DNA of 64,000 nt from Tetradesmus obliquus (taxonomy: Eukaryota > Chlorophyta > Chlorophyceae > Sphaeropleales > Scenedesmaceae). The position numbers and the translations under genes were made by a program. Below the pieces are notes generated by a model that saw nothing but the letters and a program-made list of their open reading frames with translations, had not been told where the DNA came from and made no database searches. The stretch covers positions 868,001 to 932,000 of the forward strand of contig CP126196.1 of assembly GCA_030272155.1 (NCBI GenBank). Direction: 5' to 3'. Positions 2,693-63,951 of this stretch are shown here, piece after piece. The stretch's first letter is position 1; every line of letters starts with the position of its first letter.

Positions 2693-3724
2693 CAGTGATG
2701 TGCTGGCTACAGTAGGCTCCCCACCGCCACCGCCGCCCGCGTTCCTGCAAGCCCGCAGCTGCTACAGCCGCCGCCACTTCAGCCACATTGGCGCCACTAA
2801 ACCCAAGGACCTGCAGCAGCTAAACCTCCGCCTACAGCGGCAGCAGCAGCTGCTGGGCCAGCTGCTGCGGCAGCCAGATCTGGGGCCGGAGTGCCAGCTG
2901 TGCTTTCACCATGCTGGCTCACTGATGTGGTCCGGGGAGGTTCGCTGGCAGTCAGCAGCAGATCGGCAGCTGCAGGGCAGTTTCAAAGCTTGCGGGCACC
3001 TATTCACCCCGCCAGCATGCGCTGCTGCTGCTGCTGCTGCTGCTGGCAGTAGCAGCGCTGAGCTGTACTGGCTGCGCTACAGCCGGCTGCCGGCTGTGCT
3101 GGAGTTTGTGGTGGGCTGTACCGCACGGAGCTTTGAGCAGGAGCAGTGGAGTGCACCTGCAGCAGCAGGCAGCAGCGCGTGAGTGGCTTGGGCTGCTTTG
3201 GCATGCGCTTGTTAGTTTGGCGGTGGTGTGTATCGGTTGTGAGACAGTGCTTGAGTGGTGTGGGTGGTGCACAGTAAAAGTGCAAGTAATGGCTGGCCGG
3301 CAGTGTGGCAGGCACAGCATGGCTCACCCAGGAAGCAATACAACAATTTACTGTGCTGGATTTTGTGGTGGGCTGTAGCGCCAGGAGCTTTGAGCAGGAG
3401 CAGTGGAGTGCGCCTGCAGCAGCAGGCAGCAGCGCGTGAGTGGCTGCGGCTGCTTGGGTGGATGTTTGTTTGTTTGTTTGTTTGTTTGGAGGTGCTGTGC
3501 GTTGGTGTTTGAAGGAGTGTGCCTGCGTGGTGTGGGTGATGTGCAGTGTAAGTTGATGATGCAGGTGATGTCTGGCTGGCAGTGTGCAGCAGGCACAGCC
3601 CGGCTCACCCAGGCGAGCAATACACCAATTCACTGTGCTGGTCAGCGTCTGGTATTGCAGGAGCCGTGCAGCACCTGCTGTGTTTATGAAGTTGTGTTAA
3701 GCCGATGTTTCACGTGCTGCTGTA

Positions 3725-3763
<39 letters not shown>

Positions 3764-4618
3764 CGTGTGCATGAGGGCTGGGACCTGGCACCACTGGCGC
3801 TGGTGCCACACAGCAGCAGGGACCTGCGGCAGCTGAGGCAGCTGATGGCGGTGCTGCGAGATGAAACGGAGCCGAGCAAGAAAAAGGTGAGAAAGGCAGG
3901 CAGCAGCAGCAGCTGCAGCAGCAGCAGCAGCAGGGACCTGCGGCAGCTGCGGCAGCTGATGGCGGTGCTGCGAGATGAGGCAGAGCCAAGCAAGAAGTAG
4001 GTGAGAAAGGCAGCAGCAGCAGCAGCGGTGCATCACGTTGTGCTGACATGCATCTGTCTTGATGTACTTAGAATGTGAAAGGGGCACCACTCACCACTCT
4101 ACAGGTTGGTCTGGCAGGTTGCAGAGCGTGCTGGTGCGCATGAAGGCTGTTGCACAGTGCGGGGACGTGCATGCTGACATGTGCAGTTGCTAAACTGCTG
4201 ACTGCTGCATGATCTGTCATTGCCCCGCCTGACATGACATAGCCACGCAGCTGTCATTTATTGCCTGCATGCCCTGCTGCTGCCGTGCCCTCTGTGCCAT
4301 TCCCCACTCTTTGCCAGGGTGACTACCAGGTTGCATGTGGCAACATCCACCTACCTGGACCAGCAGCAGCAGCAGGCACTGGTGGCGCAGCAGCAGGAGC
4401 ACAGCTGACAGGCCGCTCATTCATCTTCCACAACCCTGATGGCGGCAGCAACAAGCAGCAGGCGCTGCTAGAAACGCAGCTGCCACTCGAACATCAAATG
4501 CACTGGAGCCTCATGCAGCAGCAGCAGCAGCAGGCTCACAAGCAGCAGCAGTATACGCGGCAGGGCCTGCTGTGGGACAGCGCCTCCCCAGTCTGCTTGA
4601 TGACAACATGCTGGTTCA

Positions 4619-4673
<55 letters not shown>

Positions 4674-5027
4674 GTTTGGCGCTGCTGCAGCTGGCAGTCT
4701 AGAAGTGCTAGTGGCTGACTCTCCGCCAGGGCAGCGCCAGGCACTGCAGGAAGCTCAGCAGGCACATGCAGCTGCTGTGGCTGCGTCTGAGCAGCAGCTT
4801 GTGCAGCTGCGAGAGTGGAAACGGCAGCTGGAGGCCTGGCAGCAGCAGCAGCAGCAGCAGCCAGTTGCACACGAGCAGCAGCAGCAGCAGCAGCAAAACG
4901 TGCAGCAAGTACAAACGCAGCAGCCGCAGCAGCAGCAGCAGCAGCAGCAAAGCGTGCAGCAGATACAAGCGCAGCAGCAGCAGCAGCAGCAGCAACTGCC
5001 ACCGCAAACCGTGCAGCAAGTACAAGC

Positions 5028-5078
<51 letters not shown>

Positions 5079-5132
5079 CCACCACCACCACCACCAGCAA
5101 CCGCTGCTGCAAACCATGCAGCAAGTACAAGC

Positions 5133-5166
<34 letters not shown>

Positions 5167-6166
5167 CTTCAGCAGCAGTTGCAAACCGTGCAGCAAGCGC
5201 AAGCACAGCAGCAGCAGCAGCAGCAGCAGCGGCAGCAGCAGCATCGGCAGCAGCAGCAGCATGGGCTAGTGAGCTCTGTACAGCTGCTGCTGCAGCAAGC
5301 TCCTGTGCAGCTGCCTCCACAGCTGCAGCAGCCAGGGCAGCCTGCACCCGTAGTGATGCAGCATGTAGCACTGCTGCCACAGCAGCAGCAGCAGCAGCAG
5401 CCAGGTCAGCCTGCACCCTTAGTGCTGCAGCATGTAGGTGTACTGCCACAGCAGCAGCAGCAGCACTTTCAGCCGCCACACCTGGTTGTTGTGCCGCAGC
5501 AGGCGGTGCAGCCGCCGCAGCACATCATTGTGGTGTCTCAGGCTCAACAGCAGCTGCCGGTGTTACAGCAGAGCCTGCCGCAGCACATACCTCAAATGAT
5601 GCCAACAGTAGCGGCTGCAGTGACAGCACCCGTGCTTCCACCTGCTTATGCACAGCAGCAACACCAGCAGCAGGTGCAGTTGAATGCAGTGACAGTGCAG
5701 CAGCAGGCACATCAGCAGCAGATCCAGCAGCAGATCCAGCAGCTGCCGCCAGCGCCTGTGCTGCAGCCGCAGCCTCAGCTGATGAGCACTAGCAGCCTAC
5801 AGCAGCAGCAGCAACAGCGACTACGAGCCACCAGCACCGTAGGGGAGCAGCAGCGGCAGCAGCAGCAGCAGCACTTGGAGCAGCAGGCGAGCAGTGGCAT
5901 CAGCCTGCAGCACTCTCAGCTACAGCCTGGCGGGAGCTTGCAGACGCAGCAGCTGCATCTGCAGCCAAGTGGCAGCATCAGTGGGCAGTCAAACCAGCAG
6001 CAGCAGCAGCAGCAGCAGCAGTTGCCGCCTGGTCCGATGCCTGGCCCTGCTGGGCAGGCAGTCATCGGGGCCTGCCACAGCATACCTGGCCTGCAACCTG
6101 CACCTCAGCAGCAGCAGCAGCAGTGTGCCAGGCTTGTTGCTGATCCTGATGCAGATCCAGGCCCTT

Positions 6167-6232
<66 letters not shown>

Positions 6233-6512
6233 CTGGCCTCAGCACAGATGTCAAGCAGCAGCAGCAGCAGTTGCCGCCTGGCCTGCTGCCTGGCCCTGCT
6301 GGGCAGGCTGCCATCAACGCCAGCAACAACATTCCTGGCCTGCAGCCCGCATCCATTATTGCCAGCAACAGCATTCCTGGCCTGCAGCCATCAGCTGAGC
6401 AGCAGCAGCACCAGCAGCAGCAGCAGGTTCAGCTGCCAGTCAGGCCTCCAGCTGCTGGCCTGGGCGGTCTACCTGACATGCCAGTGAACATACCAGGCTT
6501 GCAACCGCGGCC

Positions 6513-6543
<31 letters not shown>

Positions 6544-7307: not shown

Positions 7308-7347
<40 letters not shown>

Positions 7348-7518
7348 GATGATCGACACATGCAGGTAGATGCAGCAGAGATGCATGCAGAGACAGCAGC
7401 AGCAGCAGCAGCAGCAGGTGACACACAGCTGCAAGTGTCAGACGACTGGAGCCCCGCACCTGAGCCGCCAGACTCACCTGCCCCAGAGCTGCCAGCATCG
7501 CCACCACCGCCAGATGTG

Positions 7519-7571
<53 letters not shown>

Positions 7572-7855: not shown

Positions 7856-7901
<46 letters not shown>

Positions 7902-8427: not shown

Positions 8428-8459
<32 letters not shown>

Positions 8460-9202: not shown

Positions 9203-9241
<39 letters not shown>

Positions 9242-10476: not shown

Positions 10477-10517
<41 letters not shown>

Positions 10518-10537
10518 CCTCATGTGGCCCCCTGCAG

Positions 10538-11472
10538 CTGCGCCCCGTGTACATGCACACGCTGCGCCGCCACAGCCTGCTGCGGCGGCTGCTGGGGCAG
10601 CTGCTGCGCTACGGCCGCGGCTGCTGCCGCAGCCCGGAGATGAACATCAGCCTGCTGGGCTCTGGGCTGGTGCAGGCGCGGGAGCTGCGGCTGCTGCAGC
10701 CGTATCGCCTGGTGAGGAAACCACTGCTTTTTGCACTTGTTTTTGCTGATGTTTTTGCCAAAAATAGGGCTCAGGGCTGGCCCAGCCTGCAGTGCAGGCG
10801 CGGGAGCTGCGGCTGCTGCAGCCGTACCGCCTGGTGAGGGATGTTTTGCTTCTCTGCTGGCTTGTTCTGCTGTTTCAGTTGCCTTTTTGCTGAAGAAGAG
10901 TAAAACAAAGGTCGAGCTGCGGCCGCTGCAGCCGTACGGCCTGATGAGGAAGTTTTGCTGCTCACTTGTTTTGCTGGGGGTCGTTTTGCCCTTTTGATGA
11001 ATAAAACTAAAAAAAGTCAAGCTGCGGCTGCTGCAGCCGTACCGCCTGGTGAGGGACGTTTCGCTGCGCACGTGTTTGCTGTTTTTTTTGCTTTTTGCTG
11101 AAAACAGAAAGATAAAGTGAAATATACATTTAAGGGCTGGGCCGACGAGTGCTGACAGCTTCTGCCGCCGCCACTGCCTCCACCGCTGCTGCTGCCGTGC
11201 AGCTGTACAGCCGCCTGGTTGGATTTGTTGCTGACATGGTGTCAGGAGGGGATGAGGTGTTAGTGGACCTGGGGTGTGGTCCCCAGCAGGGGCCGCAGCT
11301 GCTGCTGCCTGCTGCAGAGCTGCTGCACAACCCCATGTACAGATGTGCACGGCCAGTCACATATGCGCCTCATGGCAAGGATAAACGCATGATGACGCGT
11401 GATGTGGCACAGGACTCGGGCTGGGTTGGGGGCCACGGCAGCAAGCAGAAGCGTGGCAGGGAGTTTGTCTAG
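10538..11472 (+). CDS. Unrecognised two-exon (partial) gene, Leu/Arg-rich
   Basis: Exon 10538-10711 (58 codons, phase 0) starts after CCCCTGCAG and ends at CTG|GTGAGG. It encodes a Leu/Arg-rich peptide that includes VYMHTLRRHSLLRRLL, SPEMNISLLGSGL and RELRLLQPYRL. Exon 11203-11472 starts after GCCGTGCAG in the same phase, encodes LYSRLVGFVADMVSGGDEV then LVDLGCGPQ, and reads to TAG at 11470. The LVDLGCG string recalls a methyltransferase motif I, but no other motif supports that family. The 5' exons are not located, and the stop could be replaced by splicing after 11,345. I do not recognise the product. Confidence 0.4.
10768..11053 (+). repeat. Three extra copies of the exon end ELRLLQPYRL plus donor
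   Basis: The last part of exon 10538-10711 with its GTGAGG donor recurs at about 10,768-10,833, 10,911-10,943 and 11,018-11,048. The second of these has ATGAGG in place of the GT donor; the other two keep GTGAGG. Spacing is about 105-120 bp. The intervening sequence is T-rich and contains repeated TTTTTGCT and TTTTGCTG motifs. Confidence 0.75.
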
Positions 11473-13240: not shown

Positions 13241-14223
13241 ATGCATCTGATGTAGCTCCTGGTGCTCGCAAACAGAGGGAGAGGTGCTGCAAGGCCAGTG
13301 GCTGCTGTGCTGACCTGCGGAGCCTGGGAAAGCCCTACTGCCTCAAGAAAGGTAACTCATACTTTTGCTTGCCAGCAGCCAAGCCTCCCTCATAGTTGAA
13401 TTCTGACACTCAATAGCTGATGTTGAATATCACAGCAGCTTGTTATCTTCCTCTCCGTGCTCCTCAAGCAGGGAAATTGGCAGGCCAGCCACTGTTCAGC
13501 AGCAACAGCAGCAGCAGTGCTGTTCATGCTCTCATCCGTCTGGCTGCATCTTTATTGCTGCACCAGCGCCAGCGCCTCTGACCCTGCTGCTACTGCTGCT
13601 GCGGTGCTGCTGCTGCTGCTTCCATGGCCAGGGTTGTGCCCAGAGCACATGAAGACCGATGCGTTACGCCTCAAGGGCGGAGGAGACCAGCTGTGGCGCT
13701 ACTGCCAGCAGGTGAGGCCCCGGCTGCTCGTTTTATTGAAAGTAGTTGCCGATTTGCTATGACTGCTTCATCAACAGTTCAAATCACTTGCTTGCTGAAA
13801 ACTGTTGCAACGTGATCAGCTGTGGCGCTACTGCCAGCTGGTGAGGCCCCGGCCGCACGGCTGGCACCAGTATCAGAGGTGCAGTTGGTTCACTTTGCAG
13901 CAGTAGATAATGCAAGATCATGTGTACACACATGCCTAGATGCCTAGATGCGTAGATGCTTAGAAGCACACCAGGCAAGGCATGTGTGTGTGTGTCTGCT
14001 CCTTGCAGTTGGCTTCAGCACCTCTGCCTTCTGACTTGACCAAACCAAAACACGACCCTGACTTCAGTGCCAGATTTCACCGGACAATCCACAATTGTTA
14101 ATTAAATTTTTGTCCTTGTGCTGCTGCTTGCAGTGTGGCAAGCTGGAGCCCCTGAGCTGCTTCAAGCATGGTGCTCGCAGCTGCAGGAAGGCCCTGGCCA
14201 AGCGCCGTGTTCACCACGCCACC

Positions 14224-14263
<40 letters not shown>

Positions 14264-19190: not shown

Positions 19191-22109
19191 TACCCTTGGA
19201 CAACTGTCCTGGCGCCAGTCCAAGGAAGGACAGATGGTGCAAGGCTGTTGCCTGCGCAGTTGATCTGCATGACCTCGGAAGGCCGTACTGTCTCAAGAAA
19301 GGTAGGTCATTTGCATCATTTATCATTGGGAGCAGCAACTGTAGCGTGGCACCTATTGCATGATGCCCAGCACCACATGCTGCCCATGCATGATCTGTCA
19401 ACCAGTAGATCACAGCCACTGTTGTACATCACACGATGGTACACTCTTGCTGCTAGCAGTGCAGGTGTGAAGCTTTGCCATCTCCCTCCAAGGACCCACA
19501 TGCTTGATGCATCGCTTGACTGCAGATTTCGCCGTTGCTGCTGCTGCTTTCTGGTCCTGTTGCCAGGCCTGTGCCCAGAGCACCTGAAGGCCAACGCAGT
19601 ACGCCTCAAGGGCGGTGGCGACCAGCTGTGGCGCTTCTGCCAGCAGGTGAGGCCCAGCTGTGCCTCGCAAAGCATGAGGGTGTGCTTCCTGCAAGCAGGT
19701 ATGCCCCAGTTGCGCCTGGCAAAGCATGTTTGTGCGCTTCCTGCAAGCAAATCAGAAGCTGTGCTTGATATGTGGAGTTGGTGGAGCGGCAGCTTCCTTG
19801 AGCAACAGTAAGCTGTCCTGCTCTGAGGCAGCAAGCTCTCCTGCAAGCAGCCAGGCGGCCAAGTAGCACATGTTTGCTTTCCTGCAAGCAGCTGAGCAGG
19901 TGTTATGCTACTGCTCGCTCTGCACTTAGGATCTGCCGTATAATGTGTTTCCTGCAAACTTATCTGCCTTGTGCGCTGCTTTCTGTGATAGCTTTACATG
20001 TGCTGTCTCCTCACAGGAAGGATACATTGGCAGCCGTTGCAGAGTGACGACATCTTGATCAACCCATCCGCGCATATTCCTTGCATGGGCGCGACTCACC
20101 AGATTTGTCTCTTCAAATGCAGGGCGTGCAGATCCCACCACCAGCAGCTCAGATGTTTTTGGTTTCTCTGGCGCTTTAAAGCTGAGATTCTGTGTTTGAT
20201 ATGCTGCTGCCCGCAGTGTGGCAAGCTGGAGCCCCTGAGCTGCTTCAAGCAAGGCATGCGCAGCTGCAGGAAAGGCCTCGCCAAGCGCCGCCAAAACCTT
20301 GCCAGCAAGCAGGAGCGGCAGCAGCCAGAGCACGAGATCAGCACCCACAGACCGCAGCCGGCAGCCAGGCGGTCAGCATTCGCAACGGCATGCAACTCTG
20401 GCAGCGCCGAGGGCTTGAGCATGGACTGCACTGCATTGGAGCACGATAGCATTGGCCGCACCGGCAGCAGCAACACCACCTGCAGCAACCTTGGACTTCT
20501 GGCAGCAGCGGCAGCAGCAGCAGGCAGCCCTGGCATGTACAACAGCCACCAGCAGCAGCAAGTGCTGCAGCAAGTGCTGCTTCAGCAGCTGGCCGGCAGC
20601 ACAGTAGGACTGTCAGGATTGGTCCCAGCGACGCACCAGTCACTGCTGCTGCTCCAGCAGCTGAGTGGCGACGCGTGGGCAGCAGCAGCACACCCTGGGA
20701 TACTCATGCTTCAGCAGCAGCACCTGCACCAACCGCTGCCTACTGGCATCTGCCATGGCAGCGTGCAGCAGCAGGTGGTGCTGCTGCTGCCGCCACAGGT
20801 CCTGCCTGGCAGCACAGCAGCAGCAGCACTGTCCAACACTCTGCTCATGCAGCAGCAGCAGCAGAACTCGCAGATCTACATGGCAGCAGCAGGGCCCATG
20901 CTGCTGCCAATGGCAGCAGCAGGGCCATCTCTGACAGCCTACACCAGCATCGATGGCCTGAACTCTGCAAGTGTGCCAGCAGGTTGCCTGGACCATGTTG
21001 CCCCAAGCTTCGAACAGCTGGACACAGCTGGCATGCAGGGCACCCCTGCACGCATGAGCAGCACCGGCTCTTCATGCTTTGCAGGGCTGGTGGAACAGAA
21101 GTATGTGGCACCAGCAGTGCCAGCAATTTTTACAGAGCTGACTGGCGAGTGCCTTGCCACAGCAGCAGCAGCAGCAGCAGCAGGGCCTGCAATGCTTTCA
21201 GAGTTTCAGGAGCTGCAAGATTGGGACTGCCATGCCGAAGCAGGGCCAGCAGCAGCATCTGCCATCCCTGGCCTGCCCTTCACTGAGGCAGAGCTAGATG
21301 CACTGATAGATGAGGAGCTGCAGACAGCACGGATTCAGCTGGACAACACTGCAGCAGCAGCAGCACCGGCTGCAGCTGGCATGCCACTGCCTGGGCCTGC
21401 GGCTGCAGTGCTCAACGACAGCGGCGGCAGCAGCGGCAGCTTGCAGGACAGCGATGAGGGCTGGCGTGGTGGTGCAGAATCAGCAGGCTATGCCCTGCTG
21501 AACGATTCCCAGCTGGATGGAATCATTGAGCAGGAGATGCTGGCTTTGGGCATGGTAGTGTCAGCAGGCAGTGGAGGCATTGGCTATGAGCTTGCAGGCT
21601 CACTGGGCTGCACTGCTAACACCCAGCACCTGCAGCCTGCACTGCAGATGCCAGCTGGGGTACCTGAGCCGCCAGCCAGCTCTGCTGTAGCAGCACTGCA
21701 CGCCGCTACTGCCGCACCTTCAGTGGCGGCATTTGCGCCTGCAGGGACGGCAGCAGCAGCTGCAGCAGGGGGTGTCGTGGAGCCTCTTATGACTGAGGTG
21801 ATTAAGCAGGCACAGCCACTGCCGGCAGCAGCAGCAGCAAGTGGCGTGGCACCTCTTCAGGTAGCCGGGCTGCCACAGGTGCCTCTGTTGCCACCTACAG
21901 CAAGCATGGGAGATATGCCAGCAGCGGCATTGCAGGCCATGGCAGCAGCAGCAGCAGCAGGACAAGCCATGGTGCCAACAGGGACTGCAGGGCTGCTGCA
22001 TGCTGCACAGTATGCCAGGCTTGATGCTTTGATCAGCGAGCTAGTGGACTTGAGATCAACAATGCAGCAGCAGCACCAGCAGGTGGAGCAGCTGCAGCAT
22101 CAGCCATAG
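19191..22109 (+). CDS. SBP-box transcription factor, paralogue 2 (5' end not found)
   Basis: Exons 19191-19301, 19567-19646 and 20217-22109 have the same phases as paralogue 1, and the first two have the same lengths (111 and 80 nt). Together they encode the SBP domain: CKAVAC, then CPEH, CQQCGKLEPLSCF, RSCRKGLAKRR. As in paralogue 1, Glu replaces the second-site His and a Cys follows. The last exon codes about 630 residues rich in Gln, Ala and Gly. It holds two copies of the acidic helix (TEAELDALIDEELQ and NDSQLDGIIEQEM), the second preceded by an acidic DSDEGW stretch, and ends with the conserved helix AAQYARLDALISELVDL. A nuclear sequence-specific regulator is expected. Upstream exons are not identified. 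Intron 2 holds a 45-bp tandem pair near 19,655-19,745. Confidence 0.87.
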
Positions 22110-42500: not shown

Positions 42501-43965
42501 AACCTAAGCCGCGCCTCGGTGAAGGGCGTGTTGCTTGCGCATGGCAGCACCACACTTCAAAGTGACGGACCGTAAAGAGAGCAGTTTGATTTCCCCGGTA
42601 GGTTTAGGGCCTAAACCCCAGCCGCACATTGGTAAAGGGCGTGTTGGTGGCGCCTGGCAGCACTACATTCACAATGTGCGTGTTTCTCATCGATGAACCC
42701 CATCTAGCTGTAAAAAACTCACAGTAATAAAGCTGGACCGCACCTTGGTGAAGGGCGTGTTGCTTGCGCCTGGCAGCACCACGTTGACGTTGATGCCGTC
42801 AGGCGCCCACGCCAGGGCCAGGCTCTTGGCCAGCGGCAGCAGCGCACCCTGCGGGGGACGGCATCCAGCCAGCAAAAGCAGCAAAGACATGCATCACATG
42901 ACAAGGCAGTTCGGCAATACAGCGCATTGAGGGAGGCTTTGTCAGAGACTATGCTACAGCCAGCTGGCAAGTCACCAACAGATGCACACGGCACGCATGG
43001 GATGGCAAGCCATTATATGACAGTACAGCACGCATGGCAAGGTCAACGGTAGTTGCTGCTGCTGGCCGCCAGGGCCAGCTCTTAGCCAGCGGCAGCAGCA
43101 CACCCTGCAGGGGAGGGCGAGTCAGGGCAATGGTTGAGCCGCAGCCAAGCGTGAAGTTGCGGCGCAAGCCGGAATGCATGCTGCTGCCGTGCAGCCGCTG
43201 CTTGCTCCACCGCTGGTTTGACAGCCGCTTTGGCAAGGCAGCAGCAGCTGACGTTTTTGGCTGGGCTAAAAAAGCCACTGGAACGGCCAGATTTGTCCGT
43301 GTACTTTCGATTGCCCAAGCAATCAGGGAGGAATTGGGTACCTGATTCCAACCCTCATGAGCGGTATATCGGCTCGCTGGGCTAGTGCCTGAGGCAGGTC
43401 CGTCCTATACTTTGGTATTGGTATTGGTATTGGTATTGGTGCTGAATTGCCGTGCACAACACGGCTGCCTAGCCGGCTAACAACATTGTACAACATAGCT
43501 AGCTGTACAGAGCGCGTAAGTGGAGGAGGGCGCTCACCTTGCTCACGCAGTAGGCTGCCTGAGCTCCATAGCCGATCCATACAAAGAATCGTCTGGATAG
43601 TCCATTGTCTGACTATCCAGATGATCATCAACACTGATCAAGTGTGAAGCACTATTCCAGCGGCAGAGGGCTCACCTTGCTCGCGCAGTAGGCCGCCTGT
43701 GCTCCATAGCCGTAGTTGGCTGCATGCAGCAGATACAGCAGCACAGACGGGAGCAGATGCCTTGTCATCAGCACGTTGGATTCGTTGAGGACCTTGCTGG
43801 ATTGCAGTGTAAAAGTGTGATTCCTGAAACTAAGTAACAGGCAGCTGCACCTGTGGTGCTAAAGAAAAGGCAAAACCATAGGCGACCGAAGCGCGCCACG
43901 AGTGTCACGTGCTGCCGCTGCTCCTCACCCCCACCTGCGATGCTGCTGCTGAGTCCTTTGTGCTG

Positions 43966-51266: not shown

Positions 51267-52114
51267 ATGGACTCCAGGCCTCAAGATATTCCTGTGAAGA
51301 AGCTCATCAAAGCGTTGCTGGCAATCTCCTTCGGCACCATCATCGAATGGGTACGATAGCTGTATAATTGACTGCATAATTACGGCTGCGATGATGGTGC
51401 ACGCATTCCCGCTCACTGTCGCACATCTTTCGTTTCAAGGCTGACTCTCTGTGTGCTGCTGCACTTCCCATGCCACTCCGCTGATTTGTGCTACCGAAAG
51501 TATGACTTTACGGTGAGAGGCTATCGAGCGTATGTCACTTCAGGCCCCGCAATGACCTCGCAGTACTGCATGTGGCTTGCACACGTGGCTCCGCATCGAC
51601 CGTTACCAAGACCCAAGCAGATTGACTTCAGCATTTGGTTGCGTGAATGACCGCTCAGAAGTAGCTGCGGCAGTCACACGCAACAAGCCAGTTGCACTGG
51701 CAGCTAACTGCAAAGCAGCACTGCAGGATCAGCAGCAGAAGCTGACTGTGCTCTGTGGCTGCAGATGTAACTGCGCGGCCTCTCCCAGGACAGCATGCAT
51801 CTCCAACTTTCAACTCCAAAAAACTGCACATGTGTATGTGCAGCAGTGGACACACTCGCATCACTGCCGACATCCCTCTGTGCCATCCCACTGCTTCTGC
51901 CGCACATGCCGCCAATCCCCCACCCTCATCTGCTGCACGCCGTCCTGACAACGACGCACCCCCAAAACCCCAACTGAACAACCTTTCCCAACGCCACCCA
52001 ACAGATCTACACCCAGCTCACGGGTGTCATGAGCAAGGTGTTCTTCCCAGGCTCCGACCCGGCCGTGCAAGCGCTGTCCATCTGGGGCATCTTTGCGGGT
52101 GAGCAGCAGCATGC

Positions 52115-52156
<42 letters not shown>

Positions 52157-55100
52157 GCGTTAGGTGGCTAGTAGCTGCCGTGCACGTAGTAAACCGCGCC
52201 GTGCGTCACCATCACACATGTTACAATGGCACCAGCGGCACGCATGCTGTCCCTAGCTCCTTGCAATGTGGTATGAAAACAGTACGCTTAGAGAGCGAGT
52301 TTACATCAGCAATCAACGCACCCCGCCGTGAAGCATTGTCCACCTGGGGCATCTTTGTGGGTTAGCAGCAGAGATATTGATACTGGTCTGGAACTTGTAC
52401 TTGGATGCAACCAGTGCTTATTTGCTCCATGCGCGGCTACTCCAGCAGCAGCTGCTGCTGCCAACATGCAAAATTTGCCACCCCCACTCTACGTGCATGG
52501 TGTCCCGCCTGTATATGCAATGCACCCCACCTGTAGAAGCAGCACCAGCCCACGCACTACCTCTGCAGCATCTCCACATCTGGCTTTGGGTTCTTCTCCC
52601 ATACGCTGCTGCTCACCTCTGCCACCGCTCCCGCAGTGGGCTTCATCTCCCGCCCCGTGGGCGCGCTGCTGTTTGGGCACATGGGAGATACACGTGGCAG
52701 GGGCCTGTGCCTGCTGCTGTCTGTCATCCTGATGGGCGTGCCCACGGTGAGCCGGCAACAGCGTTAACCAGGGTTGACTAGCGTTGACCAGGGTTGACCA
52801 GGTTTGACCAGTGCGAGGCTGGGCGTGCCCACCATTGTGCAGCAACAGCAGCAGCCGCACAACTGACAGTCTACATTAAGGCAGCAGCAGCAGCAGCAGC
52901 AGCAGGTTCCAGGTGGAGTCCAGAGTGACGGTGCTGCAGCAGCAGCAGAGAAACCTCGGGAATGATGGAGACAACGCCAGGCTCTGTGTTACTGCTGCCA
53001 GGTGATCATTGGTTGCCTGCCCACGTACGCCCAGGCTGGCATTGCCTCCCCCGCCCTGCTGGCCACAATGAGGCTCATCCAGGGCCTGGCAATGGGAGGG
53101 GAGTTTGGTGAGTGACTTGTTACATGTGTAATAACATGTCACCATCATTACATGTTACAAACACGTTACATGTTACAAACGTAGATGTGAGTGCCCTTAT
53201 ATGCTTTGCCAAAGACTTACGCAGGGCCTGCCCATGGGTGGAAAAGATCGGTCAGCTTGGTAGTCAAACTATCACTTGGGCATGCGGAGTGCCCGCCTCC
53301 AACAGCAACACGAACTTTGCTGCAATTTACAAGATGCTATATTGAATTAGTGACATGCTGCTGCTGATGATGCTGACCACATGTCTGACTGCTGCTGCTG
53401 CTGCTGCTGCTGCCCCTTGCAGGTGCTGCCATGGTGTACCTGCACGAGATTGTGCTGCCGCAGTACAAGTCACTCACAGGCAGCCTCCATGCTGCCAACA
53501 ATGCATCACACATGTAACATTGCAATGATGTGCATGTCTGCCTGCTGCCCCCTGCAGGTGCTGCCATGGTGTACCTGCACGAGATTGCGCTGCCGCAGTA
53601 CAAGTCCCTCACAGGCAGCCTGGGCTACGTTTCCCTGGGCCTTGGGGTGGTGCTGGGCATCCTGGTGGTGGCGGCCGTCATCTACACCGTCACTGGAGGT
53701 GGGCAGTCGTTATTGTTGACTAGCGTTGACCGGCGTCGACCAGTGTGGGCGTTGGTGTGGTGCTGGGCATCCTGGTGGTGGCGGCCGTGATCTACACCGT
53801 CACTGGAGGTGAGCGGTTGTCATGTTTGACCAGCGTTGACCATTGTTGACCGGCTTTGACCAGTGTTGACCAAAGTTAACTATTGTTGACCAGTAATGGG
53901 CTGGGCGTGGTGCTGGGCATCCTGGTGGTGGCGGCCGTGATCTACACCGTCACTGGAGGTGGGAGGTTGTTATTGTTGACCAATGTTGACCAGGGGTTGA
54001 CCGACGTTTGACCAGTGTTGGGCCTGGGAGTGGTGCTGGGCATCCTGGTGGTGGCGGCTGTCATCTACACCGTCACTGGAGGTGGGCGGATGCTGTTGTT
54101 GTTGACCAACGTTGACCATTGTTGACCAATGTTGACAAGTGTTGACCAGTGTTGGGCGTGGGAGTGGTGCTGGGCATCCTGGTGGTGGCGGCTGTCATCT
54201 ACACCGTCACTGGAGGTGGGCGGTTGTTTCTGTTGACCAACGCTGACCAGGGGTTGATCGACATTTGACCAGTGTTGACCAGTGTTGTGGCTGCGTCATC
54301 CAGACATAGAATGAAATGCTCACTGGAGCTGCAACAAAAACATTGATCAAAATGTCACTCCCCTAGTTTCCCTGCAGATGTCCTCCTGCAGAGGCCATGC
54401 TGGTGTCGGGCTGGCGAGTGCCCTTCCTGCTTGCCGTCATCACCCTGGTGGCTGCACTGTAGCTGCACAAGCCTTGTTTGATGCTTTGTACTCCTCGGAG
54501 TTGCACCCCAGGAAGACGCTAGCACGGCTTCATGCTGCTGGCTGTATAGGAACCACTCACATCTGCTTCTGCTGCTCTGCTTGCCTCTGTCATCCTGCTT
54601 GCCCTGCACAATGCGGTTGTGTTTTATATGCAGAGGCCATGCTGGTGTGGGGCTGGCGCGTGCCCTTCCTGCTGGCCGTCATCACTCTGGTGGCTGCCAT
54701 CGTGCTGCGCTACAACATGCCGGAGAGCCAGGAGGTGGGCACATGCTGCTGCTGCTGCTGCAACAACAACAGTCCTATGCAGCTGTGGGTGTGCACTGCG
54801 CTGCAACTTGCTGAGCGGTCGAGCTTGCTCATGTTGCCGGATGCAGCTGCTTGCGCCTGGGTACGCTGCGTGTTGTGCTGCTGTGCCAGCGCACCCCCTT
54901 GAAGAAGTATGTTGAACAGAAACTACGCTGCTCACTGCTGCTGCTGCTGCTGCTGCAGTTCATCATGTCGCGTGATGAAATTGACGAGGAGTTCCGCCGC
55001 CGCCTGAAGCAGCAGCAGATGAAGAAGAAGCGCGGATCACTCAAGACCACCAGCACAGGTGAGGCCGCCAGCACAGGTGAGGCCGCCAGCACAGGTGAGG

Positions 55101-55863
55101 CCGCCAGCACAGGTGAGGCCGCCAGCACAGGTGAGGCCGCCAGCACAGGTGAGGCCGCCAGCACAGGTGAGGCCGCCAGCACAGGTGAGGCCGCCAGCAC
55201 AGGTGAGGCCGCCAGCACAGGTGAGGCCGCCAGCACAGGTGAGGCCGCCAGCACAGGTGAGGCCGCCAGCACAGGTGAGGCCGCCAGCACAGGTGAGGCC
55301 GCCAGCACAGGTGAGGCCGCCAGCACAGGTGAGGCCGCCAGCACAGGTGAGGCCGCCAGCACAGGTGAGGCCGCCAGCACAGGTGAGGCCGCCAGCACAG
55401 GTGAGGCCGCCAGCACAGGTGAGGCCGCCAGCACGCTTCACCCCTAGCAGGCATTGGGCTGGCTGCAGCGCTGAAGATGCGGCTGTTGCCGCTGCCACTG
55501 CTGCACGCCGCTGCCACTGCTGCCGATCCTAGCATGCACAGGGCTAGCTAGAGCGCTGATGATGTGGATGCGGCTGCTGCTGCTGCCACTGCTGCACATA
55601 AAGTGGGGATGCGCCTTGTCTGCTGCACGAATTCAGCATGTTTTCAGCACATGCACATGCAGAGCTCACCTTCAATGTGGTATCAATGAGGTCACCTCCT
55701 TGGCTAACAAGGGCGCTGCTGCTGCTGCTGCTGGTGCTGCTGCACACCATCTTGGGCCTGTGGTTCTTGTAAGCAGGCCTCACCTGGAAAGCGTCAGCAG
55801 CAGCGAGGACGGCTCCATGGTCAAGGCTGCTGCTGCTGCTGTCGATCCTGAGGTCAATGGCGG

Positions 55864-55902
<39 letters not shown>

Positions 55903-56356
55903 GCAGACCTCACCTGCGATGTTGCAAGCAGTGAGGACGGCTCCATGGTCAAGGCCACAGTTGCTGCTGTTGCTGCTGCTGACCCTGAGGCCGGCAGCGG
56001 CGCTGCTGCTGCTGCTGCCCCTACGAAGCACTACGTGCCGGTGCTGGAGCTGTTCAGGGGCCACTGGCTGGGCATCCTGGTGCAGGCCTGCTACGAGGCA
56101 TGTGAGTGTGGAAGATGATGCAGCCGTGAACATCATTTCAACAGGTTCAATGCATGCATGCTTCGTGTGCGTGAGTGGAAGCCTCTGGCTGGGCATCATC
56201 TTGCAGGCCTGCTACGAGGCATGTTAGTGTGGAAGATCAAGAAGCACAACGCTGTTGTGCATACACATATGTATGATGTTATGATCAAAAAACGGGATCA
56301 GAGCAGGCATGCTGCAAGGTGTGTGAGTGGCAGCGGGCAGTGACACAAGCATCTTG

Positions 56357-56402
<46 letters not shown>

Positions 56403-57206
56403 AGGGATTGGTGCCGGCTTCTACCTGGGCTACAGCTGGCTGCCGTCTTTCTTCACGAAGCATGCAGGCATCCCTCAGCCGCTGACGCTGTGGATGGTGC
56501 TCAGCGGCATGGTCATCTTCACGGCGGTGGTGCCGGTGAGTGATGCTGTTACACTATAACAATGTTGATTTCATGTTATTTTATGTATGCTATGAAGTTC
56601 AATTGCAGTTCTTGTGGTGCTCAGCGTCGTGGTCGTACATACAGCCCACGTGCCTGTGGCAACCACTTGTATGCTGGGTTGATTGCAACTGCTGTGTCAC
56701 TGCATGGTCAAGCTGCAACAACAGATTAATGTGTTGAATTGATGTTGCTGCTGTTGCTGCTGCCGCTGCTGCTTGTCCTTGCAGCTTGCTGGCTGGCTGA
56801 GTGACAAGGGAGTGGGGCGGGTCACTGCCACCATGTGGGTCACCGTGGTTGCCGGTGAGTGCGCTGCTCTTCTGTTTTCCTGACAACACCAGCACACCAG
56901 CGCACAGCGTGTCGTACCTGCGGGCATCCCTCTCTGCTGCTGCTGCTGCTGTTGCTGCTGCCATTGCTTACAAGTGCTTAATCATTCTGCCCCCCCCCCC
57001 CCCCCTCACCTTATTTCATGCCTGCAGGTGTCACCTCCATCCCCATGTTCCTGGGCTTTGCCACCAAGAGCCTGGCCCTGTGCTGGCTGCTGCAAGTTGC
57101 AATCCTTGTCATGGTGGCCTACACCATGGGAGTGCTGCCAGCCATATGCTCCAACATCTACCCTTGCACTTGTGTGTGGAAACAAGCATTGTTAACCCGT
57201 CTGTTG

Positions 57207-57269
<63 letters not shown>

Positions 57270-58303
57270 ACAATGCAATAGGTGTCACCTCCATCCCCAT
57301 GTTCCTGGGCTTTGCCACCAAGAGCCTCGCCCTCTGCTGGCTGCTGCAAATTGCAATCCTGGTCATGGTGGCCTACACTATGGGAGTGCTGCCAGCCATA
57401 TGCTCCAACATCTACCCGGCAGGCGTGCGCATCAGCGGCTTCAACTTCGCGTACAACACGGGCATCATGACCTTCGGCGGCCTGGTGAGCTGTTATAACA
57501 TGTTATTTGTTGTAAGTAATAACTGAATCTGTGACCGCTTGATCAGATATACCCGGCAGGCGTGCGCATCAGCGGCTTCAACTTCGCCTACAACACAGGC
57601 ATCATGACCTTTGGCAGCCTGGTGAGTCGTTATAACATTTGTTTGTGACAAGTAACAGCTATTTTTTGGCGGCATCAGCACATCTACCCGGCAGGCGCGC
57701 GCATCAGCGGCTTCAACTTCGCGTACAACACGGGCATCATGACCTTCGGCGGCCTGGTGAGCTGTTATAACCTGTCACTTGTGCCAAATAACAACTTGAT
57801 ATGTGGCCGCTTAGAAACATCTACCCGGCAGGCGCGCGCATCAGCGGCTTCAACTTCGAATTCGCATAAAACACGGGCATCATGACCTTTGGGGGCCTGG
57901 TGAGTTGCTACAACTGTTACATTTGTGACAAGTGATGGCTAGATCTTTGGCCGCGTGAACACATGTTGCTGCTGTGTGCGCATCAGCGGCTTTAACTTTG
58001 GCTACAACACAGGCATCATGACCTTTGGCGGCCTGGTGAGTCGTGCTGCAAAGGTTGTGACTTGAAGATGGGAGTGTGGTGGCATCCATGCAAATGGGAG
58101 GCGAAGCATAGCGGCTGGTGTAACCAGCAAATTTAACAGTAATCACAGTCATTCGACAGTCATTCGACAGTCATTATGTGAGCTGCACCGGCTGGCGCAG
58201 CTTCACTCCTGCTGCTGCTCTTGTGTGTCTACGGCTTCCAACCATCCCTGCAGCAGGTGTATGCACTCACCATCGCTGTTGCTGCTGCTGCTGTTGCTGC
58301 CGC

Positions 58304-58352
<49 letters not shown>

Positions 58353-58432
58353 GCAGACGCCGCTGATCATGACTGCCATCCAGACCAGCAGCAAGTCCAT
58401 CTGCAATTGCTAATGCGTGTGTGCACTGCCTG

Positions 58433-58471
<39 letters not shown>

Positions 58472-58554
58472 GCCGCAGACGCCGCTGATCATGACCGCCA
58501 TCCAGACCCACAGCAAGTCCATCTTCATTTGCTGAAGCGGGTGTGCACTGCCTG

Positions 58555-58631
<77 letters not shown>

Positions 58632-58870
58632 AGACGCCGCTGATCATGACTTCCATCCAGACCAACAGCAAATTCGTCTTCAGTTGCTGATGCGTGTGCT
58701 GCACTGCCTGCCTGCTGCTGCTGCCGCAGACGCCGCTGATCATGACCGCCATCCAGACCAACAGCAAGTCCATCTTCATAGGCCCGGGCATTTGGATGAC
58801 CTGCATGGCGGCCGTCACTGTTGTGTCCTGCATCATCATGCTCAAGAAGTTCCCGGCGTGCAACAAGTAG
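51267..58870 (+). CDS. MFS metabolite:H+ symporter (ProP-like), complete model
   Basis: Thirteen exons: 51267-51350, 51501-51512, 52005-52098, 52637-52746, 53002-53107, 53558-53698, 54634-54734, 54959-55058 (or a later donor), 55907-56101, 56405-56535, 56785-56854, 57282-57484 and 58730-58870. Phases agree throughout, giving 495 residues with the first donor of exon 8. Family marks: IIEWYDF at the start of helix 1, the loop signature GHMGDTRGRG after helix 2, MRLIQGLAMGGEFGAAM in helix 4 and YLHEIA (typical of the MHS family, proline/betaine and dicarboxylate symporters), GWRVPFLLA in helix 6, a charged central loop, and GWLSDKGVGR in the second half. The substrate cannot be read from sequence. 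It should be a proton-coupled plasma- or organelle-membrane importer. TGTAA about 110 nt after the stop is a plausible poly(A) signal. Many exons have tandem partial copies. Confidence 0.88.
52330..52366 (+). repeat. Diverged copy of MFS exon 3 end
   Basis: The string TCCACCTGGGGCATCTTTG recalls the exon-3 end (TCCATCTGGGGCATCTTTG, 52078-52096). It is followed by GGTTAGC in place of GGTGAGC. It lies about 260 bp downstream in the intron. Confidence 0.55.
53423..53487 (+). repeat. Upstream copy of MFS exon 6 head
   Basis: It keeps the acceptor CTTGCAG and encodes GAAMVYLHEIVLPQYKSLTG like the functional exon (53558), then diverges. It has no donor at the divergence point. Confidence 0.8.
53745..54215 (+). 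repeat. Four extra copies of the MFS helix-5 exon end
   Basis: The end of exon 6, encoding VVLGILVVAAVIYTVTG with donor GAG|GTGGGC or GTGAGC, recurs with ends at 53808, 53958, 54081 and 54215. The last two are preceded by GACCAG acceptors and form 66-nt exons (54016-54081, 54150-54215) of phase 1-1, so they could be included without a frameshift. The spacers are made of TGTTGACCA-type units. Confidence 0.85.
53820..54286 (+). repeat. TTGACC-rich intron repeats
   Basis: Introns between the duplicated exon copies consist largely of GTTGACCA(G/A) units 10-12 bp apart. Further clusters lie at 52,764-52,812 and 53,714-53,745. TTGACC resembles a plant W-box core, but the placement in introns makes simple repeat expansion the likelier explanation. 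Confidence 0.8.
54392..54464 (+). repeat. Upstream copy of MFS exon 7 head
   Basis: After CTCCTGCAG it reads AGGCCATGCTGGTG and encodes EAMLVSGWRVPFLLAVITLV, like the functional exon at 54634. It then diverges before the exon's normal end. Confidence 0.8.
55058..55434 (+). repeat. 18-bp minisatellite of 21 units, each with a splice donor
   Basis: The unit GGTGAGGCCGCCAGCACA is repeated 20 times plus a 17-bp partial copy with no visible substitutions. It starts at the exon-8 donor. Read through, it encodes GEAAST repeats. Each unit supplies ACAG|GTGAGG in phase 1, so any donor can join exon 9 in frame, adding six residues per unit to the central cytoplasmic loop. Confidence 0.95.
56160..56235 (+). 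repeat. Copy of MFS exon 9 end
   Basis: The sequence encoding WLGIxLQACYEA is repeated about 115 bp after the functional exon end (56101). Here the donor GTGAGT has become GTTAGT. The following TGTGGAAGAT is also shared. Confidence 0.75.
57028..57163 (+). repeat. Upstream copy of MFS exon 12
   Basis: After CCTGCAG it encodes GVTSIPMFLGFATKSLAL and continues to CSNIYP, nearly identical to the functional exon at 57282, then diverges. The two are separated by a 22-unit CTG tract. A run of 16 C residues (56990-57005) precedes this copy's acceptor. Confidence 0.85.
57547..58035 (+). repeat. Four extra copies of the MFS exon 12 end
   Basis: The end of exon 12 (IYPAGVRISGFNFAYNTGIM) with donor CTG|GTGAG recurs at 57547-57621, 57679-57756, about 57813-57899 and about 57978-58035. 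The first two have AG acceptors and lengths of 75 and 78 nt in phase 0-0, so they could be spliced in without a frameshift. The third has an in-frame stop; the fourth lacks the head. Confidence 0.85.
58147..58177 (+). repeat. CAGTCATTCGA triplicate
   Basis: Three tandem 11-bp units (the last partial) lie in the intron before the MFS last-exon array. Confidence 0.8.
58357..58700 (+). repeat. Three upstream copies of the MFS last exon
   Basis: Copies start at 58357, 58479 and 58634, each after (CTG)n and a CAG acceptor, and encode TPLIMTxIQTxSK. Each runs into a stop within about 20 codons (ends CNC, FIC and FSC), while the fourth copy (58730-58870) continues to the full C-terminus. Use of an upstream copy would give a transporter lacking the last helix. 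Confidence 0.85.
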
Positions 58871-61524: not shown

Positions 61525-61914
61525 TTACCGCCTGCCTTTCGGCGGCGGCTGCTGCCCTAACAGAGGCAGCCCTTCCTCCTCATCTGCTGCTGCTGCTCTA
61601 CTAGACTGCTGGTGCTGCTGTTGATGGCCGTCCGCAACATCTTCACTCCCGCCAATTAGATCTACAACAATCTCCACTCCTTCACCCCGCCCATCCCCGT
61701 GCGCGCTGCTGCTGCTGCTGTCGCCGCCAGCTGCTGCTGCTGGCGGATCTTGGTCAACCGCAGGCGGCAGCAGCCAGAGGAATGGTGCTGGCAGCAGCGT
61801 GGATGCATTGCACAGCACCAGCAGCAGGAACAGGTTGCTAAAATCGCTGCTGGTCACGCCTAGCAGGCTGGTGAGGCTGGCTCCTAGTGCAGAACCGGTG
61901 AAGCCACCTGCAGG

Positions 61915-61982
<68 letters not shown>

Positions 61983-62373
61983 GAAACACGGCAACATCAG
62001 TCTGCGCTGTCAACTGGTGACACGATTTGAGTGGCTGAATGAACCTCAGAGTAACAGTACAGCTGCTGAGATCTGCGTCACTACGCTGCCTATGCTCAGC
62101 AGTTACCAGGGCTGCTGGGGGCTGCAGAAGCGCGACAAACAACTAGTAGCGCTGCCAACACACACCAGCACTGGCAGCAAACTAGAGCAGCCACAGGCAA
62201 GCAGCCTCACTGTAACATTATCCTCTCCATTGAACTATCATCCCATATCTGAACGATAGCGCAGCGCTTGCCTGCGTTGAGTATGCTCATGAGTGTCGCA
62301 AACAGTGTGGCCTCCACTCCCTCGGGGCACAGCCGCGCAGCCAGCACCAGGATGGGCATGAACGACACCTGGC

Positions 62374-62408
<35 letters not shown>

Positions 62409-63951
62409 CGACAACAGCACAATAGTGAGCAGTAGTTGCCGTGATTGCAACCACGTGAACATGTTGAACAACAAGCTGTGTCGCCAGCACGAACAGCGCA
62501 TTGCTGAGCCACCACCGCTGACCCCCGCCAAATTCTATCAGTCGTCTAGCAGTACCGCACACCCACCTGCCCCAACACTGTGAGAATGACGCTGTCTCCC
62601 AGCACAAGCAGCTCATCACTCAGCCCCGTCAAACATACCAATACAAGGCAGCAGCAGTATCATGCAGATCACCAAACCCACCTGCCCCAGCACTGTCAAA
62701 ATGACGCTGCCAACCAGCAAGCACAGCTCAACGCTCAGCCCTTTCAAACACACAAACACAAGGCAGCAGCAGTAGCCCTCATCAAACCAAAACTCACCTG
62801 CCCCAGCACTGTGAGAATGACGCTGTCTCCTGGCACAAACAGCTCGTCACTCAACCACAAAGGGGTGACCCCACAGAGCATCATGGTCTAGCACCTGGCA
62901 ACACATCAATCACAGCACACCCACCTGCCCCAGCACTGTGAGAATGACGCTGTCCCCCAGCACGAACAGCTCATCGCTCAACCCCAGGGCCCTGTTGGCC
63001 CCAGACACCAGCAGCAGCTGCGTGGAGCCCAGGCCCACTCCCAGCAGCATCGCCCACAGCAGCATGCGCTTGAGGGGGACCTTCTTGAAGACCCCATTGT
63101 ACAGCGCCACACCTGTTTGCAAGGGTGGAGTTGCAGCAACAGCGCACACAAAGTGGTGAACAGCATGCGCTTGTGGGGAACGTTCTTGAACACACCGTTG
63201 TACAGGGCCACGCCTGCACACTGGTGTGATGCGGCAGCCCAGGGTGTGGTTATACAGTTTATACATGTTGTTTGGTGTTCCGTTGCACAGCGCTACTCAT
63301 GCAACATGGCACGCCCAGCAGCATCGCCCACAGCAGTATGCGCTTGAGGGGCACCTTCTTGAACACACCGTTGTACAGCGCCACACCTGCTTGCAAGGGT
63401 GGAGTTGCAGCACCACAGCACACAGAACAAACATAGATTTGGCATGCAGGTGGAACCTTTTTGAAGAAACCATATAGCTCTCGCGACTACAAATGCAAGT
63501 GTTCAACACAGGCCAGATGCAGCCAAACAGCACGCAAGCTGCTTCTGCTTGATACCTTGATGCGTAGCAGCTTGTTCCATTGCGTCTGTTATTGTGAAGA
63601 GACTTCAAAGAGCACAATGCCCACCTGCCAGCCGCGCCACCGAGCCTGCCAGCTGCACCCTGCCTAGGATTGCAGGTGCACAGGGCTGCTGCAGGGCCGC
63701 TGGGCAGACGGCAGCAAGCAACCCAACTGATATCAACTTGATATCAAGGTAATATCAAGAACAGGCAGACCCACCTGCCAGCCGCGCCACCGAGCCTGCC
63801 AGCTGCACCCTGCCTAGATTCGCAGGTGCACGGGGCTGCCGCAGGGCCGCTGAGCAGACGGCAGCAAGCAGCCCAACAATATCAACTTGATATCAAGAGC
63901 AGGCAGACCCACCTGCCAGCCGCGCCACTAAGCCTGCCAGCTGCACCCTGC
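61525..63951 (-). CDS. Folate-biopterin (BT1/FBT) transporter, 3' part
   Basis: Minus-strand exons: a 39-nt exon present three times (63913-63951, 63775-63813, 63625-63663), then 62925-63112, 62272-62368 and 61525-61907 (stop). The gene continues past the window end. Key strings: [48 protein letters not shown], then [19 protein letters not shown] and [14 protein letters not shown]. They closely follow plant FBT proteins ([53 protein letters not shown]). The family moves folates or pterins across membranes, in plants notably the chloroplast envelope. The C-terminus is extended by a Ser/Glu/Gln-rich tail with an acidic DEEEGLPLL stretch. The intron after 62272 starts with GC. No substrate evidence is visible. 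Confidence 0.88.
61917..61980 (+). repeat. CAG tract, about 21 units, at an FBT 3' splice site
   Basis: On the sense (minus) strand it is a CTG tract running to CCCCTGCAG just before the last exon. A similar tract of about 11 units (62,374-62,407) precedes exon 62272-62368. Confidence 0.9.
62567..62870 (-). repeat. Three extra copies of FBT exon tail
   Basis: The tail of exon 62925-63112 (encoding [18 protein letters not shown] with donor CAG|GTGGGT or GTGAGT) recurs at about 62798-62870, 62682-62745 and 62567-62625. Donors are kept. The copies lie in the intron downstream of the functional exon, 115-130 bp apart. Confidence 0.85.
63158..63386 (-). repeat. Two extra copies of FBT exon head
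   Basis: The head of exon 62925-63112 (reading [16 protein letters not shown]) recurs, ending at 63213 and 63386, each with its CAG acceptor. The copies diverge after about 55-75 nt and have no donor. They lie in the intron upstream of the functional exon. Confidence 0.8.
63625..63951 (-). repeat. Triplicated complete 39-nt FBT exon
   Basis: Three copies, each with an acceptor (CTAG or CCTAG) and a GTGGGT/GTGGGC donor. Spacing is about 140-150 bp, and the intron sequence with its TTGATATCAA motifs is also copied. Phase 1-1 means one, two or three can be included in frame. The copy at 63913 has one Ser-to-Leu difference. Confidence 0.88.

Follow-up and report, generated by a model that had tools for sequence, protein, structure and literature searches.

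The window analyzed here is a 64,000-base stretch of the Tetradesmus obliquus genome (contig CP126196.1, positions 868001 to 932000; the genome comprises 104.66 Mb in 17 contigs), and several of its genes carry copies of their own exon boundaries within neighboring introns. Either an exon end with its donor or an acceptor with its exon start is repeated at short distance, and in a curated set of such junction copies the ratio of nonsynonymous to synonymous change (dN/dS) between exon and copy lies below that expected of a dead copy. By reading and alignment, junction copies occur in about seven genes on both strands, namely, a Q-rich gene, a gene at 10.7 to 12 kb, two SBP-box genes, a short-chain dehydrogenase (SDR) gene, an MHS/MFS transporter gene, and a BT1-family transporter gene at 62.5 to 64 kb. 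An earlier note on this DNA had counted at least six unrelated genes on both strands; self-BLAST, reading, and alignment bear out the count, although "unrelated" is slightly too strong, as the two SBP genes with copies are paralogues of each other.

Exon-boundary copies in the window

Duplications were detected by self-BLAST after masking of microsatellites, and direct-repeat pairs no more than 1.5 kb apart were retained and then clustered. The window holds 78 such pairs in 18 clusters, covering 8,057 of its 64,000 bases. Gene borders are our reading rather than annotation; Pfam supports SBP (13-kb gene), SDR, BT1, and MFS, and was run on the first SBP-box gene only among three SBP-box-like genes. 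Predicted junctions come from a small hidden Markov model gene finder self-trained on the present data, which recovered at least five MHS donors exactly and made clear errors elsewhere: it missed MHS exon 1, assigned 58.2 to 58.8 kb to the wrong strand, and merged positions 1 to 15258 into one gene. Several intron copies were also called as exons, and gene annotation is affected in that copies can be mistaken for exons. A protein search for an annotation of the window SBP gene found a single fragment only, and among the best 120 of 1,724 matches to the MHS protein (0.55 to 1.75 times the query length) none was near-identical, the best ten being 58 to 67% identical.

The transporter gene at 51267 to 58870 (+ strand) has, by our reading, nine places with junction copies. 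In array A, the 52-bp exon part varies among the five copies at two sites, both synonymous, whereas the sequence after GTGGG/GTGAG differs widely; exon parts are identical where introns differ between copies A2 and A3 (0/52 versus 8/50 mismatches) and between A4 and A5 (0/52 versus 5/46). Alignments show the exon part and GTGAG kept and the intron part lost in arrays A, B, and E and partly in D. The claim that the junction is kept best and similarity is lost away from it fits those arrays but not array C, which keeps exon and intron parts about equally. Acceptor-type copies are found upstream of the exon, which the last of them directly joins (array C). The copies are listed in Table 1.

Table 1. 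Genes with junction copies and positions of the copies in the window
Feature	Position	Strand	Remarks
Q-rich gene	2-9 kb	+	carries junction copies
Q-rich gene, exon end + donor GTGAGT, 2 copies	3094..3641	+	257-bp unit; 3 synonymous, 2 nonsynonymous differences in 27 codons
Exon end + donor, 2 copies	3811..4026	+	114-bp unit; second copy ends in TAG
Array E, gene at 10.7-12 kb: exon end + donor, 4 copies	10670..11117	+	copy 3 without GT
SBP-box gene: exon end + donor	13685..13859	+	second copy 83 bp downstream
Second SBP-box gene: donor-containing unit	19631..19749	+	about 2.3 copies of 52-bp unit
SDR gene	36.8-45 kb	-	carries junction copies; Pfam
SDR gene: exon end + donor copy; exon start + acceptor copies	36838..37384	-	36838/36946; 37000-37384
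SDR gene: donor-side copies; acceptor-side copy; donor-side copy	42373..43712	-	42373-42788; 42810/43067; 43532/43670
MHS/MFS transporter: exon end + donor	52057..52371	+	copy with altered donor GTTAGC
MHS/MFS transporter: acceptor + exon start, 2 copies	53414..53621	+	
Array A, MHS/MFS transporter: exon end + donor, 5 copies	53636..54277	+	
MHS/MFS transporter: acceptor + exon start, 2 copies	54387..54697	+	non-homologous spacer
Exon end: 18-bp unit CCAGCACAG/GTGAGGCCG, about 21 head-to-tail copies	55050..55434	+	TRF, 100% matches
MHS/MFS transporter: exon end + donor, 2 copies	56060..56245	+	
MHS/MFS transporter: acceptor + exon start, 2 copies	57026..57417	+	136 exon bp at 96%
Array B, MHS/MFS transporter: exon end + donor, 5 copies	57408..58041	+	copy 4 with 6-bp insert and TAA
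Array C: acceptor + exon start, 4 copies	58352..58779	+	CTG tracts; neutral-looking
Array D, BT1-family transporter: exon end + donor, 4 copies	62554..62985	-	Pfam BT1
BT1 transporter: acceptor + exon start, 3 copies	63036..63424	-	
BT1 gene region: donor-containing unit, 3 copies	63620..64000	-	up to window end

The three SBP-box-like transcription factor genes lie in a row (12879 to 15258, about 19200 to 22109, and about 28973 to 30628), and the corresponding exon is duplicated on its donor side in two of the three.

Placement and occurrence across the genome

For comparison, we sampled 25 grid loci of 10 kb elsewhere in the genome, of which 24 were readable (L018 is all N); outside the window, the analysis covered 250 kb, including 10 kb of N, and a further 2.5 kb. 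Local duplications are present in 12 of the 24 readable loci, as 27 clusters covering 11,189 of 240,000 bases, many of them resembling those of the window, in keeping with the suggestion that the process is genome-wide. The window is richer than the genome average (12.6% versus 4.7% of bases), and half of the sample loci are without duplications. Both donor-side and acceptor-side copies occur in the sample, both ends of one predicted exon are copied at L017 3668-4524 and at L032 9426-9905, and MHS paralogues on C2 and C12 likewise have repeated exon starts. Collapsed or mis-joined haplotypes are a very improbable source of these copies. One strain of T. obliquus did give a doubled draft assembly (PMC5552973), but the copies here differ by many substitutions and indels, at many loci of a 17-contig assembly, and the proteins of the one gene pair that we compared between the two T. 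obliquus annotations share about 99% identity, much more than a copy shares with its exon. Diverged haplotypes were set aside as a copy source on that protein identity, which concerns one gene only. A table in the available part of PMC12571836 lists GCA_030272155.1 at 104.70 Mb in 17 contigs and a second 17-contig T. obliquus assembly at 100.30 Mb.

Since exons in these genes are short, random duplication would often strike junctions anyway, and random placement does so about half to 60% of the time. A predicted junction falls within 32 of the 45 clusters of window and sample together, where random placement gives 22.2±3.0 (P = 0.0025); within genes the count is 32 of 43 against 26.0±2.8 (P = 0.026). 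The within-gene excess is not significant for the sample alone (20/27 versus 16.7, P = 0.11), the window alone (12/16 versus 9.4, P = 0.11), or donors alone (22 versus 20.4, P = 0.34). Mainly intergenic clusters number 2 of 45 against about 10.5 expected (combined P = 0.002), a deficit to be read with the caveat that constraint on one copy keeps genic duplications detectable longer. Four of the 18 window clusters are unrelated to junctions: those at 16492-16798 and 24797-25812 are predicted to be intergenic, and those at 2355-2595 and 6038-6351 are wholly predicted coding.

Orientation gives a further contrast. Among 31 spaced pairs whose spacers are without marked homology to the flanks (z < 3), 10 have a donor motif at the 3' end of each copy in the sense direction, versus 0 of 31 when strands are flipped (Fisher P = 0.0008; sample alone, 6/18 versus 0/18, P = 0.019), and 3 have it at the wrong end. 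A test with the acceptor motif YAG was dropped because the motif is too common (16/31 sense, 14/31 flipped). Without annotation, GTGAG ranks first of 512 conserved 5-mers (15/45 clusters versus 9.1 expected); in the sample alone it is found in 8 of 27 clusters versus 5.6 expected and ranks 12. Left/right asymmetry around GTGAG is positive in 14 of 20 cluster-strand groups (Wilcoxon P = 0.017), but against other 5-mers its rank is only 15 of 117 (AGGTG, 5 of 117), and these tests, being weak, are not used as proof. The duplications had been described as too frequent and too position-specific for random tandem duplication. The first part is not well supported, the excess over random hits being small and, within genes, significant only for the pooled data. 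The second is supported in part, by donor-motif orientation and by avoidance of intergenic DNA.

The duplications appear not to be purely splice-linked. Two copies at L028 9622/9746 (to 9830) and four at L009 8169-8602 extend across what reads as a stop codon, so that an apparent protein-coding end with its stop recurs in downstream sequence; at both loci the coding part is kept and the downstream part lost. Reading frames, rather than an annotation, define the ends of these two genes. Such stop-codon copies speak against a mechanism specific to splicing and would be expected if the rule were the boundary of constraint.

Unit structure and possible amino acid constraint

Window and sample together gave 78 non-redundant pairs, 26 of them adjacent or in arrays and 52 spaced by at least 25 bp. 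The spacer has no homology (z < 2) to either flank in 28 of the spaced pairs (29 counting L010, for which one flank is missing) and is homologous (z ≥ 3) in 21; in the 28 pairs the copies are 72 to 100% identical, all but one at least 81%. Among 32 curated two-copy pairs, homology extends 27 to 146 bp on the exon side (median, 50.5) and 0 to 287 bp on the intron side (median, 11.5), and is longer on the exon side in 26. At L026 2694/2939, 82 bp are 100% identical around an unrelated 163-bp spacer.

These short intron sides, the identical L026 pair with its unrelated spacer, and the small number of intergenic duplications are what would be seen if copying were directed at junctions, with template switching at splice-like microhomology, or a process linked to RNA or R-loops, placing exon-end and splice-site segments into the next intron without interior sequence. 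We consider this quite improbable, since arrays with alignable introns show whole exon-plus-intron units duplicated, stop codons are duplicated as well, and no copy crossing an exon-exon join was seen in the contexts that were read. Further, the copies of faded spaced pairs lie 78 to 265 bp apart, within the range of array periods (58 to 271 bp), and we therefore read most of these pairs as decayed tandem units; direct insertion of exon ends may still be a candidate for spaced pairs.

Constraint on the copies was assessed at several levels of selection of pairs. In a first count made without selection of pairs, the mismatch rates at codon positions 1, 2, and 3 were 0.096, 0.094, and 0.210 in the sample and 0.066, 0.077, and 0.181 in the window, and those in predicted introns were 0.141 (sample) and 0.215 (window). 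The curated set of 49 pairs (the 32 two-copy pairs and 17 from arrays A to E; 885 codons, 2 stops, 4 pairs with gaps) compares exon with intron copy and gave a synonymous difference (pS) of 0.188, a nonsynonymous difference (pN) of 0.043, and a dN/dS of 0.21 (0.15-0.28), with 0.19 (0.12-0.29) for the acceptor type, 0.22 (0.14-0.33) for the donor/stop type, and 0.19 (0.10-0.31) for the 18 sample pairs alone. In simulations with a mutation spectrum taken from noncoding repeats (kappa 2.1, CpG ×3.0; 60 runs per setting), a dead copy yields a pairwise dN/dS of 0.46 (0.32-0.61), and a copy evolving at a dN/dS of 0.5 yields 0.23.

The synonymous share was compared with the dead-copy expectation by binomial tests; P was 1e-7 for the curated set, which is overstated since array pairs are related. 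The 16 two-copy acceptor pairs (49.5 synonymous/25.5 nonsynonymous; P = 1e-5), the 16 two-copy donor and stop pairs (40/30; P = 0.007; donors only, P = 0.019), and arrays A and B (P = 0.003) depart from it separately. A less selected set, with frames from the gene finder and at least 8 codons per pair, gave 0.33 (0.24-0.44; P = 0.04) for 32 sample pairs and 0.28 (0.20-0.37; 94 synonymous/89 nonsynonymous; P = 0.006) for the 28 that remain without the repeat-protein locus L025. Neutral dead copies (true dN/dS of 1) are thus rejected in the curated set and in part of the less selected sets; arrays C to E fit neutrality, and the selection of pairs is a worry.

We propose, as our leading but still tentative reading, that duplications across coding boundaries are silent and that selection against harmful conversion holds the copies near the exon sequence. 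Small local duplications, with units of about 60 to 270 bp, would arise within genes again and again. Where such a duplication crosses from coding into noncoding sequence, it would be silent: splicing, or termination of the protein, would continue from the copy that adjoins the rest of the exon, and the other copy would turn into intron or untranslated region. Copies would accumulate in introns, after donors and before acceptors, and make the introns longer, an outcome that fits the idea of intron growth by repeated junction duplication. The intron part of each copy would then drift, while the exon part would on average stay near the functional exon, with synonymous changes favored, under a second-hand purifying selection in which copies with harmful amino acid changes are costly through ectopic conversion or unequal exchange into the exon. 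Silent duplication across constraint boundaries accounts for copy location and intron growth but does not by itself explain the similarity of the exon parts or the synonymous excess over dead copies. Selection against conversion would explain the constraint, its sharp edge, and the identical exon tracts of A2-A3, A4-A5, and L026. Conversion alone was rejected by reasoning as the cause of the low dN/dS, as a converted copy evolves freely afterwards. The danger of a silent copy to a working one is familiar from conversion between genes and pseudogenes; here the copy is an exon fragment in the gene's own intron. The strong form of the proposal, in which untranslated exon fragments are under purifying selection for amino acid meaning as conversion donors and thus reveal a genome-wide conversion load, is in our view rather doubtful.

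Several observations weigh against the conversion reading. The intron part of array A is itself a short repeat, which inflates its divergence; among the extra copies of D and E, exon parts are kept no better than intron parts (P = 0.59 and 0.72), and the same holds for B2-B3 (P = 0.16). The counts for arrays C, D, and E (22.8 synonymous/25.2 nonsynonymous; P = 0.24) agree with those expected of dead copies. Some copies are broken, by TAA in B4, TAG at 3940, loss of GT in E3, and one-base gaps at 42810/43067, L030 5379, and L032 7874. The 32 two-copy pairs of the curated set were chosen by hand because their junctions could be read, and pairs from one array depend on one another. Among the less selected sets, the 32 window pairs are marginal (0.33 [0.24-0.45]; P = 0.075), as is the full sample set with L025, and in-frame coding repeats present in these sets depress dN/dS in an ordinary way. 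Finally, the model needs a very large population, because the exchange that exposes copies to selection also homogenizes them, and synonymous divergence has already reached 0.19.

Neutral decay combined with selection bias is a serious rival, although we regard it as unlikely. It holds that silent junction-spanning duplications simply rot and that the exon part looks better kept only since one partner is constrained. The neutral-looking arrays, the broken copies, and the small junction enrichment agree with it, as does the third-position share of coding mismatches in the unselected count (52% in the sample, 56% in the window; about 50% is expected by simple reasoning). However, the simulated dead-copy ratio exceeds both the curated ratio and the 0.28 to 0.33 of the less selected sets, and at 90% exon identity introns should align, yet in 28 of 52 spaced pairs the spacer matches neither flank.

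Two paralogous transporter genes on C12 (L034 and L035) share an exon-start copy with, by eye, the same end point, so that the copy either arose before the two genes separated or passed between them later by exchange. These loci and L036 were chosen by protein match, which biases them towards conserved copies and counts against any support they lend to the conversion reading. The 29 residues encoded by the L034 copy are those of its exon, with 10 synonymous differences between the two, and an in-frame TGA then ends the copy, as it does in L035. Between L034 and L035, the intron copies show 6 synonymous and 2 nonsynonymous changes, and the exons 10.5 synonymous and 7.5 nonsynonymous. L036 has two upstream copies, one with 4 synonymous and 2 nonsynonymous changes relative to the exon and the other with 8 and 1. 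Exon and copy in L035 differ by 8.5 synonymous and 7.5 nonsynonymous changes, which does not favor constraint, and the evidence for conversion itself comes down to a few sites judged by eye, two favoring it and one opposing. In L035 (C12:1926301-1927000), the intron copy is closer to the family sequence than the contiguous exon is (AIPTVLIG versus AVCTVLIS).

The TGA common to both paralogues, the low dN/dS, and its greater strength in acceptor-type copies, which are in the right phase by construction, would also agree with copies that are used, as alternative acceptors or exon ends giving regulated or truncated isoforms, and are therefore coding. This explanation is improbable in light of several results. 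Read-through from four acceptor-type copies tested reaches a stop 0 to 26 residues past the copy; donor-type copies cannot join in frame by simple splice-site use, yet the synonymous share is elevated both in them and in copies that follow a stop codon. Eight duplicated MHS segments have one place each in six MHS proteins of related algae, with no second place (P0005 lacks the last segment). The annotated protein P0020, the sole annotated example checked, matches use of the contiguous copy only, and we found no evidence for the creation of alternative exons, which the earlier note had offered beside intron growth.

Relation to known duplication processes

Intragenic duplication is a main proposed source of new introns and exons, and its intermediates are rarely seen in number. 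The chromosome-scale genome studied here shows intermediates at many junctions, ranging from fresh arrays to faded pairs. Should the low dN/dS be confirmed, this would be untranslated sequence evolving like coding sequence, with a conversion load that is directly measurable.

Intron gain by tandem duplication is reportedly treated in work by Gao and Lynch in 2009 and by Hellsten in 2011. In tandem duplicated, mutually exclusive exons, exon copies in introns are kept by coding selection; such exons are whole, with both splice sites, whereas the present copies are mostly exon ends with one. At the MHS exons 53558-53698 and 57281-57484, each copy covers the start or the end only; other pairs were judged by eye, and 63620-64000 and L031 1459-2508 may be whole small exons.

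In the available parts of the sources, intron gain by intragenic tandem duplication is described for a potato RdRp gene (PMC4974935) and in a review (PMC3443670). As described there, Rogers-type gain (AGGT duplication) resembles the present case in being a short intragenic tandem duplication that leaves the protein unchanged and in which the copy supplies splice signals. There, a new intron arises between two copies, starting at the GT of the first copy and ending at the AG of the second, and the second copy abuts the next exon; here, the junction pre-exists and the extra copy lies inside an existing intron. The last copy is followed by further noncoding sequence and has its own donor-like GT in arrays A and B and, as judged by eye, in the donor-type pairs inspected.

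A close parallel is the inter-boundary and intronic exon duplication of Exonize, in which exon segments with or without intron sequence match inside introns. According to the available text, intronic exon-segment matches occur in many genes of 20 eukaryotes and degenerate exons are foreseen, but that text does not treat green algae, copies at both exon ends, or selection on copies. The present copies align over exonic plus intronic sequence or as an exon part within an intron, as judged by eye and with the self-trained gene finder rather than with Exonize. Introners also expand introns across many genes (PMC9860276, available part), but there one sequence enters many genes, whereas here each copy comes from its own neighboring exon. 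When window positions 3106 to 4106 were searched genome-wide as DNA, those of the matches listed that lie elsewhere fell on CAG/CTG-rich stretches. Among the papers listed by our literature searches, none describes exon-end copies in the introns of a green alga; the available text of a Chlamydomonas comparison on intron length (PMC8226300) has no mention of them, nor does that of a Sphaeropleales comparison (PMC12571836), in whose main text the words intron, exon, and tandem are absent.

Other repeats also occur in the window. Each 18-bp unit at 55050-55434 combines a donor-like CAG/GTGAG with an open GEAAST frame, and the complete identity of the units suggests a very recent expansion. The intron part of array A (53700 to 54290) is made of a 10-bp TTGACCAGCG-like repeat. 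The window is very dense in CAG/CTG repeats in exons and introns (for example, 4839-5261, 44635-44711, and 61916-61981), and some junction arrays with a CTG tract in each unit may have broken at the tract. Short CCCTAA/TTAGGG-like repeats, which we take to resemble telomere sequence, lie chromosome-internally at 37620-37730 and 41866-41908.

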